The notes under the pieces: generated by a model
Seen by the model: the letters and a program-made list of their open reading frames with translations, nothing else
Told to the model about the DNA's origin: nothing
Database searches by the model: none
Part shown: one piece after another, positions 57,466 to 64,000 of the stretch
Numbering within the stretch: the stretch's first letter is position 1
Layout: every line of letters starts with the position of its first letter
Assembly (NCBI RefSeq): GCF_009600885.1
Contig: NZ_VCLA01000024.1
Location: 60,095 to 124,094 of the forward strand
Length of the DNA stretch: 64,000 nucleotides
Direction: 5' to 3'
Source of the DNA: Streptomyces jumonjinensis
GTDB taxonomy: Bacteria > Actinomycetota > Actinomycetes > Streptomycetales > Streptomycetaceae
Translations under genes and position numbers: made by a program

Positions 57466-57538
57466 GGGGCCTTAGCTCAGTTGGTAGAGCGCTGTCTTTG
57501 CATGGCAGATGTCAGGGGTTCGACTCCCCTAGGCTCCA
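57466..57538 (+). tRNA. tRNA-Ala (TGC)
   Basis: 73 nt, no encoded CCA. Acceptor GGGGCCT with AGGCTCC gives the G3-U70 alanine identity pair; anticodon loop TTTGCAT with anticodon TGC; T-loop GTTCGACTC. The recombinase gene begins about 100 bases downstream, so its 3' end is a likely attachment site. Confidence 0.97.
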
Positions 57539-57545
57539 CATCCAG

Positions 57546-57587
57546 AGAGGTGCTCTGACCTGCGGAAACGCGGGACAGAGCACCTCT
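57546..57587 (+). terminator. Hairpin after tRNA-Ala
   Basis: 12-bp stem AGAGGTGCTCTG / CAGAGCACCTCT (57546-57557 with 57576-57587), 18-base loop, T-rich sequence after it. Confidence 0.75.
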
Positions 57588-57642
57588 TCGTGTTTATAAC
57601 GTCCACACCGCGTCCGCACGCCTCTGGCATAGCGTGCCCTTC

Positions 57643-59499
57643 GTGGCATCCATTAAAAATCGTGAGAATCGGGACGGATCGATCACCTATATGGTGCGCT
57701 GGCGGAGTGCCGGCGGAGGCAGGGGGGCGAAGGAGGACACCGAGAACTTCCGCGATGAGCGGTCGGCCGAGAAGTTCCGTGATCTCGTGAATGCTCACGG
57801 TCAAAGCTGGCCTCCGGGCTGGATCCGTGGCCAAGGCTTCATCGCGGACCAGCGGCGGCCTGGGACCATGTTCGAGCCGTACGCCCTGGCTCATATCGAC
57901 CGGCTTACCGGCGTCCAGGGCGACACCAAGGCCAAGTACCGGAAGCTCGTCCTCGAAAACATGTCCCCCTGGTTCAAGCCGTACACCGTAGAGGATGGCG
58001 AGGGCTCCATCGTCCGGGAGATGGTTCAGGACTGGATCAACGATCTCGCGGCAGGCAATGCGGCCCCCCTGGACCCCTCGGACCGCAAGCCGCGGAAGAA
58101 GTACGCGGCCAAGACGATAGCCAACCAGCACGGACTTCTCTCGGCGATCCTGCAAGCCGCCGTCGATGCAGTGCCCTCCCTTCGGACCGCCAATCCATGT
58201 GCCAAGAACAGACTCCCCCGGCTGGACACCGACGAGGTCGAAGACGAGATCTGCCCGCTGGAACGGGAGGAGTGGGCGTGGGTTCACGAGTGCCTCGGCG
58301 AGCTGGACACCGAGGCACAGGAGCTGGGAGAGGTGATAGCGGAGACCGGCTTCCGCTGGGGTGAGTCCACCGCGCTCCAGCCCCGTGATCTACAGATGCG
58401 CAACGGCCGGCCCGCTCTCCGGGTCCAGCGCGCGTGGAAGCGGGACGAGGACGGGCAGCCCTATCTGGGGGCCCCGAAGTCCAAGAAGTCCCGCCGGACC
58501 GTGGTCGTCCGGTGGGGCCTGTGGAACAAGCTGAAGCGCCGTGCCAAGGGCCTCAAGCCCACGGATCTCCTCTTCACCGGTCCCATGGGCGGACGCTGGG
58601 ATGCAGGAACGTTCCGCCGCCTCCGCTGGGTCCCCGCGATCGAACTCGCGGCGGAGAGGTTCGGGCTGACCAAGCGCCCGAGGATCCATGACCTCCGGCA
58701 CTCGCACGCGGCCTGGCTGATCGCCGCGAAGGTGCCGCTCCCGGCGATCCAGGCCCGTCTCGGCCATGAGTCGATCACCACGACGATCGATGTGTACGGC
58801 CATCTTCTCGACGCGCTGGACGACGAGGTCGTGGCCGCGGTCGAGTGGGCGATGGACCCCATGGCGCCACTGCCCGGTTTCCTGGTCCACTCCGGCCTGG
58901 CGCAGCTGCCACATCAGCGCGGGTGGGTGGCCCCGGGCGGTTGGACGGACCCGGGAGGCACTCCGGGGGCGCCCGGCGACTCCGAGACCGTCTTCGTCAT
59001 CACCGCAGGGAGCAGAAGAGTCCCGTTCGCCGAACGGCAGCACGCCCAGGACGTCGCCGATCAGTGGAACAACGACCGGGCGGAGACGATCACCAAGCTG
59101 AAGGAGGCCGGCTGGACGGAGGACGGGCTCAATCGGGTTCGCGCCCTCGGCCCGGAGGAACGCGAGCGCTGGACGGGCGCGGGACCTGTCTGGAGGCGGA
59201 AGCCGGACCGCCGGTTGGTGTACCACCGGGTGGCCACCTTCCGGCCGGACGGCACACTCGCCCACGAGCCCGAGCCCATGGCCGACGGGTGGGTCTGGGA
59301 GTTCGAGACGGACCTCTACACCGATGCTGCGGCCCAGATGCGCACGGAGTTCCGGCCCGGCCCGAGCGCCCTCACGGAGGCATTCGCCCGCGGGATCGAC
59401 AAGGAAGCCGTCTCCCGGGCCTATGACGAGGTGTGCGCGAAGGCCCAGGAAGTGTGCGGGCATAGCCCGTACCTCGAACCCCTGATAACCGGGGCCTGA
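57643..59499 (+). CDS. int: Tyrosine recombinase (integrase) with long C-terminal extension
   Basis: 618 residues from GTG 57643 (57634 also possible); no clear ribosome site, -10-like TATAAC at 57595-57600. N-terminal arm-type DNA-binding part (KNRENRDGSITYMVRWR), core-binding domain (about 75-200), then the catalytic domain with R238 (TGFRWGE), HDLRH (349-353, H-x-x-R), H375 (LGHES) and nucleophile Y385 (TIDVYGH). The catalytic part ends near residue 405, and a further ~210 residues of unassigned, Trp-rich sequence follow, which is rare. Located directly after tRNA-Ala, so it most likely integrated there. Confidence 0.92.
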   Translation: MASIKNRENRDGSITYMVRWRSAGGGRGAKEDTENFRDERSAEKFRDLVNAHGQSWPPGWIRGQGFIADQRRPGTMFEPYALAHIDRLTGVQGDTKAKYRKLVLENMSPWFKPYTVEDGEGSIVREMVQDWINDLAAGNAAPLDPSDRKPRKKYAAKTIANQHGLLSAILQAAVDAVPSLRTANPCAKNRLPRLDTDEVEDEICPLEREEWAWVHECLGELDTEAQELGEVIAETGFRWGESTALQPRDLQMRNGRPALRVQRAWKRDEDGQPYLGAPKSKKSRRTVVVRWGLWNKLKRRAKGLKPTDLLFTGPMGGRWDAGTFRRLRWVPAIELAAERFGLTKRPRIHDLRHSHAAWLIAAKVPLPAIQARLGHESITTTIDVYGHLLDALDDEVVAAVEWAMDPMAPLPGFLVHSGLAQLPHQRGWVAPGGWTDPGGTPGAPGDSETVFVITAGSRRVPFAERQHAQDVADQWNNDRAETITKLKEAGWTEDGLNRVRALGPEERERWTGAGPVWRRKPDRRLVYHRVATFRPDGTLAHEPEPMADGWVWEFETDLYTDAAAQMRTEFRPGPSALTEAFARGIDKEAVSRAYDEVCAKAQEVCGHSPYLEPLITGA

Positions 59500-59506
59500 C
59501 GACGAC

Positions 59507-59542
59507 GGGGCTCGGAGGAACGAACCCGTTCCTCCGAGCCCC
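59507..59542 (+). terminator. Terminator after the integrase
   Basis: 16-bp perfect stem (59507-59522 with 59527-59542), 4-base loop, right after the integrase stop. Confidence 0.88.
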
Positions 59543-59647
59543 GGGCGTACGAGGATGCCTCCGCGTGCGGTCAGGCGGCTTCTGCACCGTGAACCGCCAT
59601 TTGACACCCCTAGCGGGTGAGTCCCGTCCTTGAACGCGCTGGCGGAC

Positions 59648-60403
59648 TCACCCGGCTGGGGCACCGTTCGGCGAAGCACTCTGGGACGGAATCCTTTCGA
59701 GCGGTACAACGCCACGTTCGCGCACTTCGGTGAGCGTCGCTCCGGAGAGCCTGAGGATCAGAGCCGCCTGGAGCTCTGCCTTCAGTTCGGGAGAATCCAC
59801 CTCACTCACCAACCGAATAGCCGTTTCCGTCTCCCGCTCCCGCTTCATGTCTTGCCGCAGGTCCTCGGTCTGTCGTTGCATGTGCCGCATGGCAGTGTCC
59901 GCACGACGATGAGCCAACTGTCCGATGATCGCAGCTACGAGGCCAGCAATGCCCGCTACAGCAGACAGGTACAGGTCTCCGGTGGTCTCGGACTTCCAGA
60001 GCCCGACAACCACACCTCCCAGCAACACCGCAATGCCCAGAGCGGAGCACGAAAGACTGAGCGCAGTACTAAGCCTCGCCTGGGTCAGGCCCCAGGCGTA
60101 ATACTCGATCAAAAGTTCGGCAAACCGGTCGTCGTCAACACGCTGCTCCCCGGCCTTCACACCAGGAACGGATCCATCAGAGCCGACGCGAAGATCACCA
60201 TTCACGTTGATGACTCGCGATTCGGAATCGCCCAAGATTGTCGACCGCAGTCGAACGCGCTCTTCCGAGGTGTCCTTCCGTAGCGTTCGCATGAAGAGGC
60301 CAGCCAGCACGGTCAAGCTACCAAGGCCTGACACCACTGCGGCTGCCACTGGTCCTAGCTCGGAAAATGCCGCCCCAGGCATCAGATAGTCCACTACCGC
60401 CAC
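59648..60403 (-). CDS. Membrane protein resembling the TRADD-N-associated (cyanoTRADDas) family
   Basis: 251 residues from GTG 60403 (GAAGGGG). One N-terminal helix (17-37), then an external/cytoplasmic Arg-rich segment with VINVNGDL, then YYAWGLTQARLSTALSLS leading into two more helices (113-135 and 146-163), and a C-terminal helical region (170-240). The two-helix unit with a preceding YY.GL.QAR segment and following KR.E repeats matches the described cyano-type TRADD-associated membrane proteins, often linked to conflict systems. GC is about 60%, below its neighbours. Not a confirmed assignment. Confidence 0.55.
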   Translation of the reverse strand: MAVVDYLMPGAAFSELGPVAAAVVSGLGSLTVLAGLFMRTLRKDTSEERVRLRSTILGDSESRVINVNGDLRVGSDGSVPGVKAGEQRVDDDRFAELLIEYYAWGLTQARLSTALSLSCSALGIAVLLGGVVVGLWKSETTGDLYLSAVAGIAGLVAAIIGQLAHRRADTAMRHMQRQTEDLRQDMKRERETETAIRLVSEVDSPELKAELQAALILRLSGATLTEVRERGVVPLERIPSQSASPNGAPAG

Positions 60404-60598
60404 GCTCTCAAACCCCTTCAGTGCACGCGCCGTTGAGCGGCCTAGACTGCCCGAGGCTATGCCTCCGTGGCTAACCGTGCTGGTTGCGCAAACGAGGCAT
60501 TGGGGCGGTCGCGCTGAGTGTATGGGCGGAACCCCCGCTAAGAGGGGCCAGAGGCCCTCAGCGTGAACCAGTACGGGGCTGGTCTCGCAAGAGGGCGT
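60404..60598. other. Gap after the HNH gene
   Basis: 195 bases with no supported gene. It holds a short GGGGCCAGAGGCCCTC hairpin near 60545. Confidence 0.4.
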
Positions 60599-61246
60599 TC
60601 ACCAGAGGCTTAGGGGTCGCCCTGCCGCCGCCGCGGCTTCGACGCGGCGTTTGATTGCCGCAGCGGGCTCGCCAGCTGCCCGTCCGGCCCGGATAGCCGC
60701 GCTGATCGCGCGGGAGCGTCCCGCCGCCCCCCGAAGGTCCGCCAGCGGGCCACCGGGGTCCCGGCGGCGGGCGAGCCATTCGGCGCGGTTCTCGGCAGCG
60801 GTGCCGAGACGAAGGTGCGCCGGCTGCTGGCAGGAGTGGTTGTCGCAGGTGTGACAGACGGTTGGGCTGTCCGGGCCCTTCCAGCCCAGGCGGGGTATGA
60901 CGCCGTGGGCGAGCTGGTAGCCGTAGAGGTGGGCTGGGACAGTCCCGCGCCGGGTCCGACCCGGGAGGGAGGCGGCCCGGAAGCTCCCGTGCCCCGTCCC
61001 GGAGATCGCGCCGAAGAAGAACCAGCACTCCGAGGTGGACGGCGTCCGGTGGACCTTGGCCCAGTACCGGGCCTGCACCGTGGGCCCGGTCAGCCAGGCC
61101 GACCACTCGGTTGCCGTGATCCGGACCGGGGCCGGCTCGCCCAGGAGAGCGAGCTGCTCGGCTCCCTCGCCGACCGGGGCGGGCCCGGAGCCGGCCGCCG
61201 CGAACAGCGGAGCCTGCCCGGACCTCTTGCCCTTCTCACCCGACAT
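60599..61246 (-). CDS. HNH_3-family endonuclease
   Basis: 215 residues from ATG 61246. Layout typical of HNH_3: SECWFFFGAISGTGHGS at 73-88 (the CW..GxxxxxGxG motif), AHLYGYQLAHG (the HxxxYE-like stretch), then VCHTCDNHSCQQPAHLRLGTAAENR (130-154) with the zinc/metal-binding His and Cys. Such nucleases are mostly homing or phage-linked. It overlaps the upstream helical protein gene by 11 bases, so the two are co-translated. Function beyond nuclease not known. Confidence 0.8.
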   Translation of the reverse strand: MSGEKGKRSGQAPLFAAAGSGPAPVGEGAEQLALLGEPAPVRITATEWSAWLTGPTVQARYWAKVHRTPSTSECWFFFGAISGTGHGSFRAASLPGRTRRGTVPAHLYGYQLAHGVIPRLGWKGPDSPTVCHTCDNHSCQQPAHLRLGTAAENRAEWLARRRDPGGPLADLRGAAGRSRAISAAIRAGRAAGEPAAAIKRRVEAAAAAGRPLSLW

Positions 61247-61688
61247 CGGCGATGCCGGTGGCAGCCACCGGCCGCGAGGTGTCCGCAGCCTCGCTCGTCC
61301 TGGGCTCGGCGGCATCCGTCGGCGTCGCCGTGGGACGGGTTCGACGTGTCCGCGGCCGGGACGCGTGCGCACGGAGCGACTCGATGACCTCTTTCGCCCG
61401 CGCAGCGGTAACGGCCTTCGCCTCACGCTCCAGCTCGTCCGCCGGTACGTCGAGGAGCCCGGCGACGAGGTCCGTGTCGCCGAACAGCCGGAGAGCCACG
61501 GCGGCGGCTTCCCGCGCCTCCAGGTCTGCCTTCTCCTTCGCGCGGGCCGCCGCGGCGGCGGCTTCCCGGGAGGTGAGGACCTGCTCCGCCGCCAGCTCCC
61601 GAACCTTCATCTGGAGCGCTGCGGAGTCGCGTACTCGTCGCCGAAGCTCAGCGGGGGTCACCGGTGCCGGCGTCGGGCTCATCGGCAC
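61236..61688 (-). CDS. Ala/Glu-rich helical protein of the island
   Basis: 150 residues (GTG 61688 or ATG 61682). Almost all helical: REAAAAAARAKEKADLEAREAAAV (about 41-64) is a coiled-coil-like stretch, with a Pro/Thr-rich tail. No family is recognised. It overlaps the HNH gene by 11 bases and may be its partner. Codon use is GC-rich like the host. Confidence 0.65.
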   Translation of the reverse strand: MPMSPTPAPVTPAELRRRVRDSAALQMKVRELAAEQVLTSREAAAAAARAKEKADLEAREAAAVALRLFGDTDLVAGLLDVPADELEREAKAVTAARAKEVIESLRAHASRPRTRRTRPTATPTDAAEPRTSEAADTSRPVAATGIADVG

Positions 61689-62113
61689 ACCCCGTGCGGG
61701 GCCGGGCGCTGATTCCGTATCTCCAGGGTGGGCAGGTCCAGATCGGCTGTCAGCCGCGTGTTCGACTTCATGGTTCGCACCGTAAGTGCAGGTCCCCAGA
61801 CATTGCGACCTAGATCATTTTCATTGGGTCAATGGCTCTGTTCACGAGAAGTGCCAGCAGATGTTCACTGCTTTGGGAGGTGCCACGGTCAGCGACCGTT
61901 CGATTTCGTATCCGTAGGGCAGGGCGGCTCTCCGCTGAGGGGCAGCAGGCGCCGATCCGTGATGGCTTCTCTGTCACGGCGACGTCAACGGCGCCTTCCC
62001 GGCGGCGGGTGCTGTCACGGCTGGGTACCGAAACCTCCAGCTCTGCCCTTGGGCGTGTAGTGGTGGGCATTCTCGTCGTACCGGGACGGGCGACGGGTAC
62101 GGAGGTTACCGAC
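61689..62113. promoter_or_regulatory. Divergent promoter region of the island
   Basis: 425 bases between the leftward Ala/Glu-rich gene and the rightward STAND gene. GC drops to about 50% at 61780-61860. A small repeat CATTG-GGT-CAATG sits at 61822-61834, possibly an operator. No gene is supported. Confidence 0.5.
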
Positions 62114-64000
62114 GTGGTAGGTGGGCATGTGGGGCGGGGCCGGTGGCGATGGACGCTTGGCCGACTTCTGTGGGCGCCAACAGGCGCTGCGGTAGCGGGC
62201 GGGATTGCGTGGGCGGTCGCGCGGGTCGGGCTGGAGACGGCGGACCAGCTCTCCAGCGTGATCGGCGGGACCGCTGGCCTGCTCGGCCTCGCCGTCGCCC
62301 TGGTCGCCTTGCGCTCTCCTGCCCCGGTCGCGCCTCCGGTCGCGGGCGGTGGGGCGGGTGGGCGTTGGGTGCGGGCGGCTGCCGCCAACGCCTCCTACCG
62401 TGCTCCCGCTGTCCAGGCACCCGTCCGCGGCCGTGACAGCGAACTCGCCGATCTTCAGAGCCTGGTAGCCGGCCGGGACGGCGGCCTCGTCGTGGTCTGC
62501 GGAACAGGCGGGCTGGGCAAGACCACCCTCGCCGCCCAGGCCGCCCAACAGGCCGAGACGGAGAGGCGGGCGGTGTTCTGGGTGCGGTGGCAGGACGATG
62601 CCGCCCGCCTCGCCCACGACCTCACCCGCATTGCCCAAGCCCTGGGACTCCCCGAAACCCGTCTCCACGACGCCCAGAACGGCCGGGCCGCGCTCGTCGA
62701 TGTGGTGTGGGAGCAGCTGGCGGCGGTGCGCGGGTGGATGATCGTGATCGACAACGTCGACACCCCCCGCAACCTCGGCCCCGGCAGCGAGCCACCGGGC
62801 TCCTACCGCGGGTGGGTGCGCCCCGACGGTGGCGGACTCCTCCTGGTCACCACCCGCGACACCGCGCGCGGCACCTGGGGACCGAGGGCGCACCTCGTCC
62901 CCCTCGAACCCCTGGCCGCCGATCCCTCGGGTGCGGTGCTGCGTGACGCCGCACCCGCCGCCGGCACCACGGTGGAGGCCGCCGCGCTCGGGGAACGGCT
63001 CGGGGGGCTCCCTCTCGCCCTGGACACCGCGGGCCGCTACCTCGCCAACCCGACCAGCCGCTACCGCACCTTCACCGCTTACCAGCACGCCCTCCCCACC
63101 GAGTTCGGTGACCTCGTCGGTGCCGAACACCCGCAGGCCACCGACCCGGAGGTCGCCCGCACGGTGGTGCGGCACACCTTCGACCTCTCCCTCGCCCAAC
63201 TCCACACCGACGGCTACACCCTCGCCCGCCCCGCTCTGTTCCTCCTCGCCCTCCTCGCTCCCGCACCCGTCCCCCGCGCTTTCCTCACCCCCGCCCTCCT
63301 CGCCGACGCCACCGGGCAGAGGGTCACTGCGTCCGAACTCGATGCCTCCTTCGCCGCACTCCACCAGTACGGCCTCATCAGCACCCCCGCCGTGCCACCG
63401 GCGGACAGCGGCGGCGGGGATGCGCTCACGGTCGGGCAGGTCGCCATGCACCCCCTGGTCCACGACGTCATCGCCCTCACCGCCCCACCCGGCACCGACC
63501 ACACCACCTGTCACACCGCCCTCGACACCCACCTCACCCAGACCGTTCGCGACACCACCAGCGCGGGCCGCGCCGGCTGGCCCACCGCACGTCTCCTCGC
63601 CCCACACCTCCCGCCCCTCCTCCACCGCACATCCCACGCCGACTTCACCGCCACCCGCAACCTGCTGACCAACCTCGCCAGCACCCTCCAGGACGCGGGC
63701 GCCACAGCCGAAGAACACCTTCTGAGCCAGTGCGTCCTCGACGCCGAGACTCACCACCTCGGCCCGGACCATCCCGACACACTCACCAGCCGCAACAACC
63801 TCGCCGTCGCCCTCGACAATCTCGGCCGTCATCAGGAGGCCGCCGACCTCCACCGGCAGAACCTCACCGACCGCGAACGCGCCCTGGGCCCCAATCAGCC
63901 CGACACCCTCAGCAGCCGCAACAACCTCGCCGTCGCCCTCGACGATCTCGGCCGTCATCAGGAGGCTGCCGACCTCCACCGGCAGAACCTCACCGACCGC
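62114..64000 (+). CDS. NB-ARC-like STAND ATPase with TPRs (incomplete)
   Basis: At least 629 residues; runs off the window. GTG at 62114 follows GGAGG. Two hydrophobic helices at the N-terminus (about 18-35 and 46-66) precede the NTPase: Walker A GTGGLGKTT (130-138), Walker B MIVIDNVD (209-216), LLLVTTRD (about 242-249) and GLPLA (298-302), the plant-NB-ARC order. A winged-helix part (about 330-440) is followed by 42-residue TPRs, NNLAVALDNLGRHQEAADLHRQN. Such proteins act as ligand-triggered switches and are frequent in bacterial immunity; here the N-terminal membrane hairpin could be the effector. Confidence 0.85.
   Translation, partial: MVGGHVGRGRWRWTLGRLLWAPTGAAVAGGIAWAVARVGLETADQLSSVIGGTAGLLGLAVALVALRSPAPVAPPVAGGGAGGRWVRAAAANASYRAPAVQAPVRGRDSELADLQSLVAGRDGGLVVVCGTGGLGKTTLAAQAAQQAETERRAVFWVRWQDDAARLAHDLTRIAQALGLPETRLHDAQNGRAALVDVVWEQLAAVRGWMIVIDNVDTPRNLGPGSEPPGSYRGWVRPDGGGLLLVTTRDTARGTWGPRAHLVPLEPLAADPSGAVLRDAAPAAGTTVEAAALGERLGGLPLALDTAGRYLANPTSRYRTFTAYQHALPTEFGDLVGAEHPQATDPEVARTVVRHTFDLSLAQLHTDGYTLARPALFLLALLAPAPVPRAFLTPALLADATGQRVTASELDASFAALHQYGLISTPAVPPADSGGGDALTVGQVAMHPLVHDVIALTAPPGTDHTTCHTALDTHLTQTVRDTTSAGRAGWPTARLLAPHLPPLLHRTSHADFTATRNLLTNLASTLQDAGATAEEHLLSQCVLDAETHHLGPDHPDTLTSRNNLAVALDNLGRHQEAADLHRQNLTDRERALGPNQPDTLSSRNNLAVALDDLGRHQEAADLHRQNLTDR
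63773..64000 (+). repeat. 126-bp tandem repeat coding for TPRs
   Basis: Copy 1 starts at 63773 and copy 2 at 63899, 126 bp (42 codons) apart, with near-identical sequence. The array continues past the window edge. Confidence 0.9.

Follow-up and report, generated by a model that had tools for sequence, protein, structure and literature searches.

Does a recombinase gene beside tRNA-Ala, followed by a nuclease, membrane proteins and a STAND ATPase, mark a self-contained immunity system in Streptomyces jumonjinensis, or the end of something larger? The genes in question fill the last 6.5 kb of the window, the stretch of 64,000 nucleotides that we analysed (positions 60095-124094 of C1 in the strain's own genome, G000, where C1 and C10 are assembly pieces). 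A preliminary description of this DNA had listed tRNA-Ala, a recombinase, a membrane protein, an HNH nuclease, a helical partner and a STAND ATPase with TPRs, all of which are present, and had read them together as a conflict or immunity island. We conclude with high confidence that the region is instead the left end of an integrative and conjugative element (ICE) of the MOBF/type IV secretion system (T4SS) type, likely 72-82 kb long, inserted in the 3' end of tRNA-Ala(TGC). The features of this end, in window positions, are as follows.

57466..57539, plus strand: whole tRNA-Ala(TGC), the integration target (ARAGORN, Rfam)
57516..57540, plus strand: left attachment site (attL), a 25-bp repeat whose second copy is the right attachment site (attR)
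57634..59499, plus strand: tyrosine recombinase (int, the integrase), 621 amino acids (PF00589 1.8e-14; PHROG integrase 5.5e-47)
59648..60403, minus strand: TRADDTM, a membrane protein with CyanoTRADDas_TM, 248-251 amino acids, accessory (PF20712 4.9e-16)
60599..61246, minus strand: HNH endonuclease-like protein (HNH), 215 amino acids, backbone (PHROG 8e-16; HNH_3 E 0.0021)
61236..61688, minus strand: HEL, a 150-amino-acid helical protein, backbone, overlapping HNH by 11 bases
61832..64000, plus strand: STAND (NB-ARC-like) ATPase with TPRs, accessory, cut by the contig end (Pfam AAA_22/NB-ARC and TPR matches)

The gene identities proposed earlier held up well. The recombinase, which had been placed about 100 bases past the tRNA, starts 94 bases after it, and the TRADD-N-associated character of the membrane protein agrees with a PF20712 match above the cutoff. 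The HNH_3 assignment falls below the Pfam cutoff, the HNH protein is clear in PHROGs, and the last gene does encode an NB-ARC-like ATPase with TPRs. Membrane helices had been claimed for two proteins, and hydropathy analysis assigned three hydrophobic helices to TRADDTM and two stretches over threshold to STAND, one N-terminal and one internal. HEL had no match in Pfam, NCBIfam, PADLOC or PHROGs.

An element at tRNA-Ala cut by a contig end

The window stops where it does because C1 terminates at 124094 (window position 64000), within a 126-bp tandem repeat encoding the TPRs of the STAND gene. Both this gene and the element are therefore truncated by the assembly, and the same break accounts for the absence of transfer genes from the visible part. 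The earlier statement that none are seen in the visible part is correct; beyond the break, conjugation genes very likely lie on C10.

The other end of the element was located through its attachment repeat. A 23-bp core of the tRNA 3' end has exactly two sites in the genome at up to two mismatches, both of them exact, and the second (C10:104926-104948, minus strand) extends to the 25-bp repeat.

C10:104925-104949, minus strand: attR, repeating 25 bp of the tRNA-Ala end exactly (repeat comparison)

Extending to the right to find an attachment repeat, as had been proposed, thus yielded an exact copy, and the insertion leaves tRNA-Ala(TGC) intact. Direct repeats at both ends are among the features that define actinobacterial T4SS ICEs (PMC3218068), and G006, a related genome, has the same core at both ends of its own element.

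We also chose 20 relatives and compared the DNA following their tRNA-Ala with C10. The integrase was not found in the 15-16 kb past this tRNA in 19 of them, in keeping with the proposed integration at tRNA-Ala. DNA matching C10 below 90.6 kb begins within ~1.1 kb of the tRNA in 10 relatives and 2.8-10.4 kb past it in six; three gave no such match in the stretch examined. The remaining relative, G006, has the integrase and reaches this DNA ~96 kb further on. Since the DNA downstream of tRNA-Ala in relatives matches C10, the reversed C10 represents the right-hand chromosome. Just past attR (C10:104046-104949; L009:8047-8950) there is a second integrase copy, which has lost its middle part and whose N- and C-terminal pieces are 66% identical; this damaged gene is what remains of an element that had occupied this tRNA earlier.

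Conjugation genes on C10

C10 is free of gaps from attR to 170,524 (65.6 kb) and carries the following genes.

C10:119182-120513: NlpC/P60-transglycosylase (profile match)
C10:125445-126881: VirB4-like ATPase (PF12846 28.3 bits, cutoff 27.5; TIGR02746 TraC 1.3e-11, far below cutoff)
C10:127543-128982: VirD4/TraG coupling protein (PF02534 58.7 bits, cutoff 20.1; PF12696 9.7e-22)
C10:134035-140616: LanB dehydratase and LanB-C/PCMT protein (Pfam)
C10:141787-146172: TrwC/MOBF relaxase-helicase (PF08751 3.9e-39, 135.4 bits, cutoff 25; NF041492 109.9 bits, cutoff 100)
C10:166216-167955: ParB (profile match)

Ghinet et al. 2011 (PMC3218068) give an integrase, a coupling protein, a VirB4-like ATPase and a MOBF relaxase as the markers of actinobacterial T4SS ICEs. 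The first is in the window, where PF00589 scores 54.3 bits against a cutoff of 27.1, and the other three are on C10, across a putative join. In a Pfam scan covering 30 of the called C10 proteins, neither FtsK/SpoIIIE-type TraB nor Rep, the markers of the pSAM2 type of actinobacterial ICE (AICE), was found. The lanthipeptide-type genes within C10:134035-155016 also include those for a P450, a pre-ATP-grasp protein, an Asp/Asn hydroxylase and a methyltransferase.

The two pieces are probably joined through the STAND gene. On its minus strand, C10 reads TDRERVLGPDHPDTLTSRNNLAAARAAVARTQRLRFPWQHSRY-stop just below the gap at 180,695. Because this end resembles the C-termini of close STAND homologues, LVSRNNLAAARAAVARTQRRRLPWQRSRR (P0051) and LTSRNNLAAAQAAIARTQRLRFPWQRSRR (P0052), the sequence from C10:180694 downward on the minus strand is very likely the missing STAND C-terminus, and from it we infer the link between C1 and C10. 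P0049, a protein encoded on a 36-kb contig, matches the STAND sequence of the window at 100% and extends further into the TPRs. With 6.5 kb on C1 and 65.6 kb on C10 as its minimum, the element would reach ~82 kb if C10 up to 180,694 is included. A simple end-to-end succession of C10 after C1 was rejected in favour of the join at C10:180694, as the genes at the high end of C10 sit elsewhere in relatives. Eight gaps of 10 N interrupt C10 between 80,000 and 204,382, the first at 170,525; they break C10:170525-182182 into small fragments that carry parts of glycine-rich and TPR genes and an IS4/5-type transposase.

Several observations weigh against this reconstruction. The assembly keeps C1 and C10 apart, and N gaps flank the 1.6-kb fragment that carries the STAND C-terminus. 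Above ~182 kb, C10 runs into genes for an ABC transporter pair, assigned from sequence. In nine of 10 relatives this pair is 0.7-3.9 Mb away from tRNA-Ala, and in the remaining one it is on a different contig, so either the scaffold contains a misjoin or the chromosome has been rearranged. The VirB4-like match clears its cutoff just narrowly, the relaxase and T4SS genes were examined in C10 and G006 only, and the exact 23-bp core was present in just one (L145) of four further tRNA-Ala loci.

A whole copy in a relative and a shared backbone

The element of G006 lies on a single contig between attL at 234130 and attR at 311845, a span of 77.7 kb. Its int, HNH and HEL are 65, 78 and 65% identical to those of S. 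jumonjinensis, with int at the same tRNA. It is collinear, with gaps, with C10 from 169.8k down to 109k, conjugation genes included, and the sequence directly inside attR is alike in the two strains. The conjugation genes on C10 and this collinear copy together argue that the window holds the left end of an ICE of the described kind. Among the outcomes that would count against its own reading, the preliminary description had listed a known type of actinobacterial integrative element beyond the window, and a T4SS/MOBF ICE is very likely what C10 carries. The G006 element also has a LanB, 37% identical, and related pieces.

HNH was present in 30 of 392 Streptomyces genomes, S. jumonjinensis included (E 1e-10), and on 101 plasmid records, 46 of them from Rhodococcus and 26 from Streptomyces; on one Rhodococcus plasmid it adjoins a ParB gene, 2 kb from mobC. 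We compared 12 further HNH neighbourhoods, discarding STAND matches shorter than 120 amino acids. HEL matches (tblastn, 59-71% identity) were near or adjoining HNH in nine of the 12 as well as in G006, and int, HNH and HEL occurred together in seven. Four of these seven are at tRNA-Ala (G257, G085, G365, G383; int 64-66% identical) and three at tRNA-Met (G025, G387, G023; int 50-51% identical), although in G023 the HNH copies are fragmented and HEL is 9 kb away. Two other loci have HNH and HEL with no int in the stretch, and three have HNH alone. Because seven of the 12 loci carry all three genes, int, HNH and HEL form the backbone of the ICE. The sister elements at L146, L147 and L150 lie directly after tRNA-Met(CAT), and their integration target likely switched along with the integrase.

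These loci also bear on an alternative by accretion, in which a small island of int, TRADDTM, HNH, HEL and STAND inserted at tRNA-Ala and a separate ICE owns the conjugation genes. Accretion is visible here in the damaged second integrase, and N gaps do separate the pieces between the end of C1 and C10:170.5k. In G006, however, int, HNH, HEL and the conjugation genes lie within one attL/attR pair on one contig, and 117 kb of that genome held no other match of at least 19 of the 23 core bases. Moreover, the ParB gene found on C10 also comes after the left-end genes in six of the 12 additional HNH loci. We therefore consider accretion very improbable and retain the single-ICE reading.

TRADDTM and STAND are likely separate passengers

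The earlier reading treated the five genes as one dedicated system, made up of a membrane effector, a nuclease with its partner and a STAND sensor on a genomic island. TRADD-N proteins adjoining AP-ATPase-TPR genes are indeed described in PMC8195603, the present locus brings a STAND ATPase together with two membrane proteins, and on one plasmid TRADDTM adjoins a TIR-WD40 gene. Were the five a unit, they would recur together, yet int, HNH and HEL recur without the other two: neither TRADDTM nor STAND was in any of the 12 further HNH loci, which rules out TRADDTM as a backbone gene. Neither was found in the G006 stretches searched (L071, L093), which cover part of the element only.

TRADDTM likewise recurs without the other genes. 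Homologues are in 27 of 392 Streptomyces genomes at 29 places, S. jumonjinensis included. Our comparison covered 30 neighbourhoods (sets of 10 and 17 fetched loci and three of five plasmid records, with G417 left out), and STAND matches shorter than 60 amino acids were discarded; L107 was counted, its copy having been missed by tblastn at 1e-4 and detected by Pfam. A STAND-like match was present at one of the 30, L188, and was distant (28%). Among plasmids, those with STAND homologues (n=23) and those with TRADDTM homologues (n=5) did not overlap. A conserved TRADDTM-STAND pairing was rejected on these counts (one distant match in 30 loci, none in five plasmids), and the locus and plasmid comparisons thus do not support a joint TRADDTM-STAND system. 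The HNH, HEL and ParB of the ICE had no match in any of the 30 loci. Pfam reported no TRADD-N domain in TRADDTM, and PADLOC gave no match better than E 0.0035.

A single immunity system of five genes therefore seems very unlikely to us, and the earlier suggestion to look for the same gene set elsewhere brought it no support, as TRADDTM and STAND were not linked in the loci and plasmids compared. Nor is a self-standing island supported: the element very likely runs on into conjugation genes, and int, HNH and the partner are common to sister elements. On the ICE reading, TRADDTM and STAND probably ride along independently of each other and do not make up a new defence system, and either of these cargo genes may serve in defence or exclusion. 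A more ambitious proposal appears improbable. It envisages a tRNA-Ala/tRNA-Met ICE family whose cargo slots, on either side of HNH-HEL, take up interchangeable membrane-acting guard genes. In this strain, TRADDTM and a STAND-TPR protein anchored in the membrane would then work together as a module of the ICE for exclusion or phage defence, protecting element and host.

Properties of the two cargo genes

Comparison with a homologue (P0050) places the probable start of STAND at GTG 62009. Against solved structures its TPR part alone was matched, to kinesin light chains. Several STAND homologues carry the name FxSxx-COOH system TPR protein (NF040586, fxsT), a model that the window's protein matches at 180 bits (7.4e-53) against a curated cutoff of 300, with the query cut by the contig end. 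In two of the plasmid regions with STAND homologues, which we opened, STAND is near ParA/ParB genes. As a lone gene, STAND is a plausible candidate guard gene.

TRADDTM has at least 48 homologues, up to 68% identical besides itself among the matches listed. Pfam (E up to 0.1) returned PF20712 and three weak unrelated models and no TRADD-N model, with no check made that a bacterial version of that model exists in Pfam. A fold search with a predicted model (mean pLDDT 73.4, pTM 0.47) gave no match (best E 1.6), a phage collection gave none at E 1e-5, and the terms CyanoTRADDas, PF20712 and TRADD-N-associated membrane were absent from the literature searched. A single-sequence scan of genome contigs returned one locus, L108, of Streptomyces sp. 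BR123.

Half of the 30 TRADDTM loci (L099-L102, L104, L106, L190-L196, L198, L199) represent one conserved chromosomal locus with a PhoD-like gene, where TRADDTM adjoins a DUF2277-like gene; most of the copies examined thus lie outside mobile elements of this type. Four loci had a weak integrase match. On a Streptomyces longwoodensis plasmid (L112:7785-11605) a TIR-WD40 protein is encoded after the TRADDTM homologue. The neighbour of the homologue on an S. canus plasmid (L111:6166-8504) is annotated as the large subunit of a phage terminase, and at L105:8175-12293 a homologue comes before genes that by eye look like terminase and portal genes.

Relation to known elements, and implications

Judged by gene content and published descriptions, as opposed to sequence comparison, the element resembles the actinobacterial T4SS ICEs of PMC3218068 and PMC9513070 in its integrase, VirD4-like and VirB4-like proteins, MOBF relaxase, tRNA target, direct repeat, size and same-site remnants. 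PMC9513070 reports Streptomyces ICEs and integrative and mobilizable elements of 86.0-99.7 kb, and describes tRNA genes as targets as well as accretion at a single site. A Frankia T4SS ICE also has a lantibiotic dehydratase gene, like the C10 element. What differs from these elements is the tRNA-Ala(TGC) target, the TRADDTM and STAND-TPR cargo, and conjugation genes reached here through a predicted contig join; the term tRNA-Ala did not occur in the 15 of 72 literature matches listed, and the spelling tRNAAla did in three papers on Streptomyces and ICEs. Relative to the TRADD-N/AP-ATPase-TPR systems of PMC8195603, a gene named for TRADD-N association lies within 2 kb of a STAND-TPR gene here, but just the 2-TM domain PF20712 is present and the pairing is not recurrent in the loci read.

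Judging from the protein families involved, the tyrosine recombinase would insert the element at the tRNA-Ala 3' end and excise it in circular form. This form would be nicked by the TrwC-like relaxase and exported by the VirD4/TraG coupling protein and VirB4-like ATPase to a new cell, where it would reintegrate at tRNA-Ala. HNH-HEL would serve the DNA processing or upkeep of the element. TRADDTM would be a lone membrane protein, and STAND, with its N-terminal hydrophobic segment and TPR sensor, would most likely be a lone switch linked to the membrane and directed at phages or rival elements.

What looked like a new immunity island thus becomes a mobile element with defined bounds whose transfer logic is known, and the case illustrates that an assembly break within TPR repeats can disguise an ICE as a stand-alone defence island. 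The element's backbone (int, HNH, HEL, ParB, relaxase and T4SS) can be told apart from its cargo (TRADDTM, STAND and the lanthipeptide genes). For Streptomyces, this points to an ICE family at two tRNA targets, in which the split between backbone and cargo helps the mining of such ends for defence genes.

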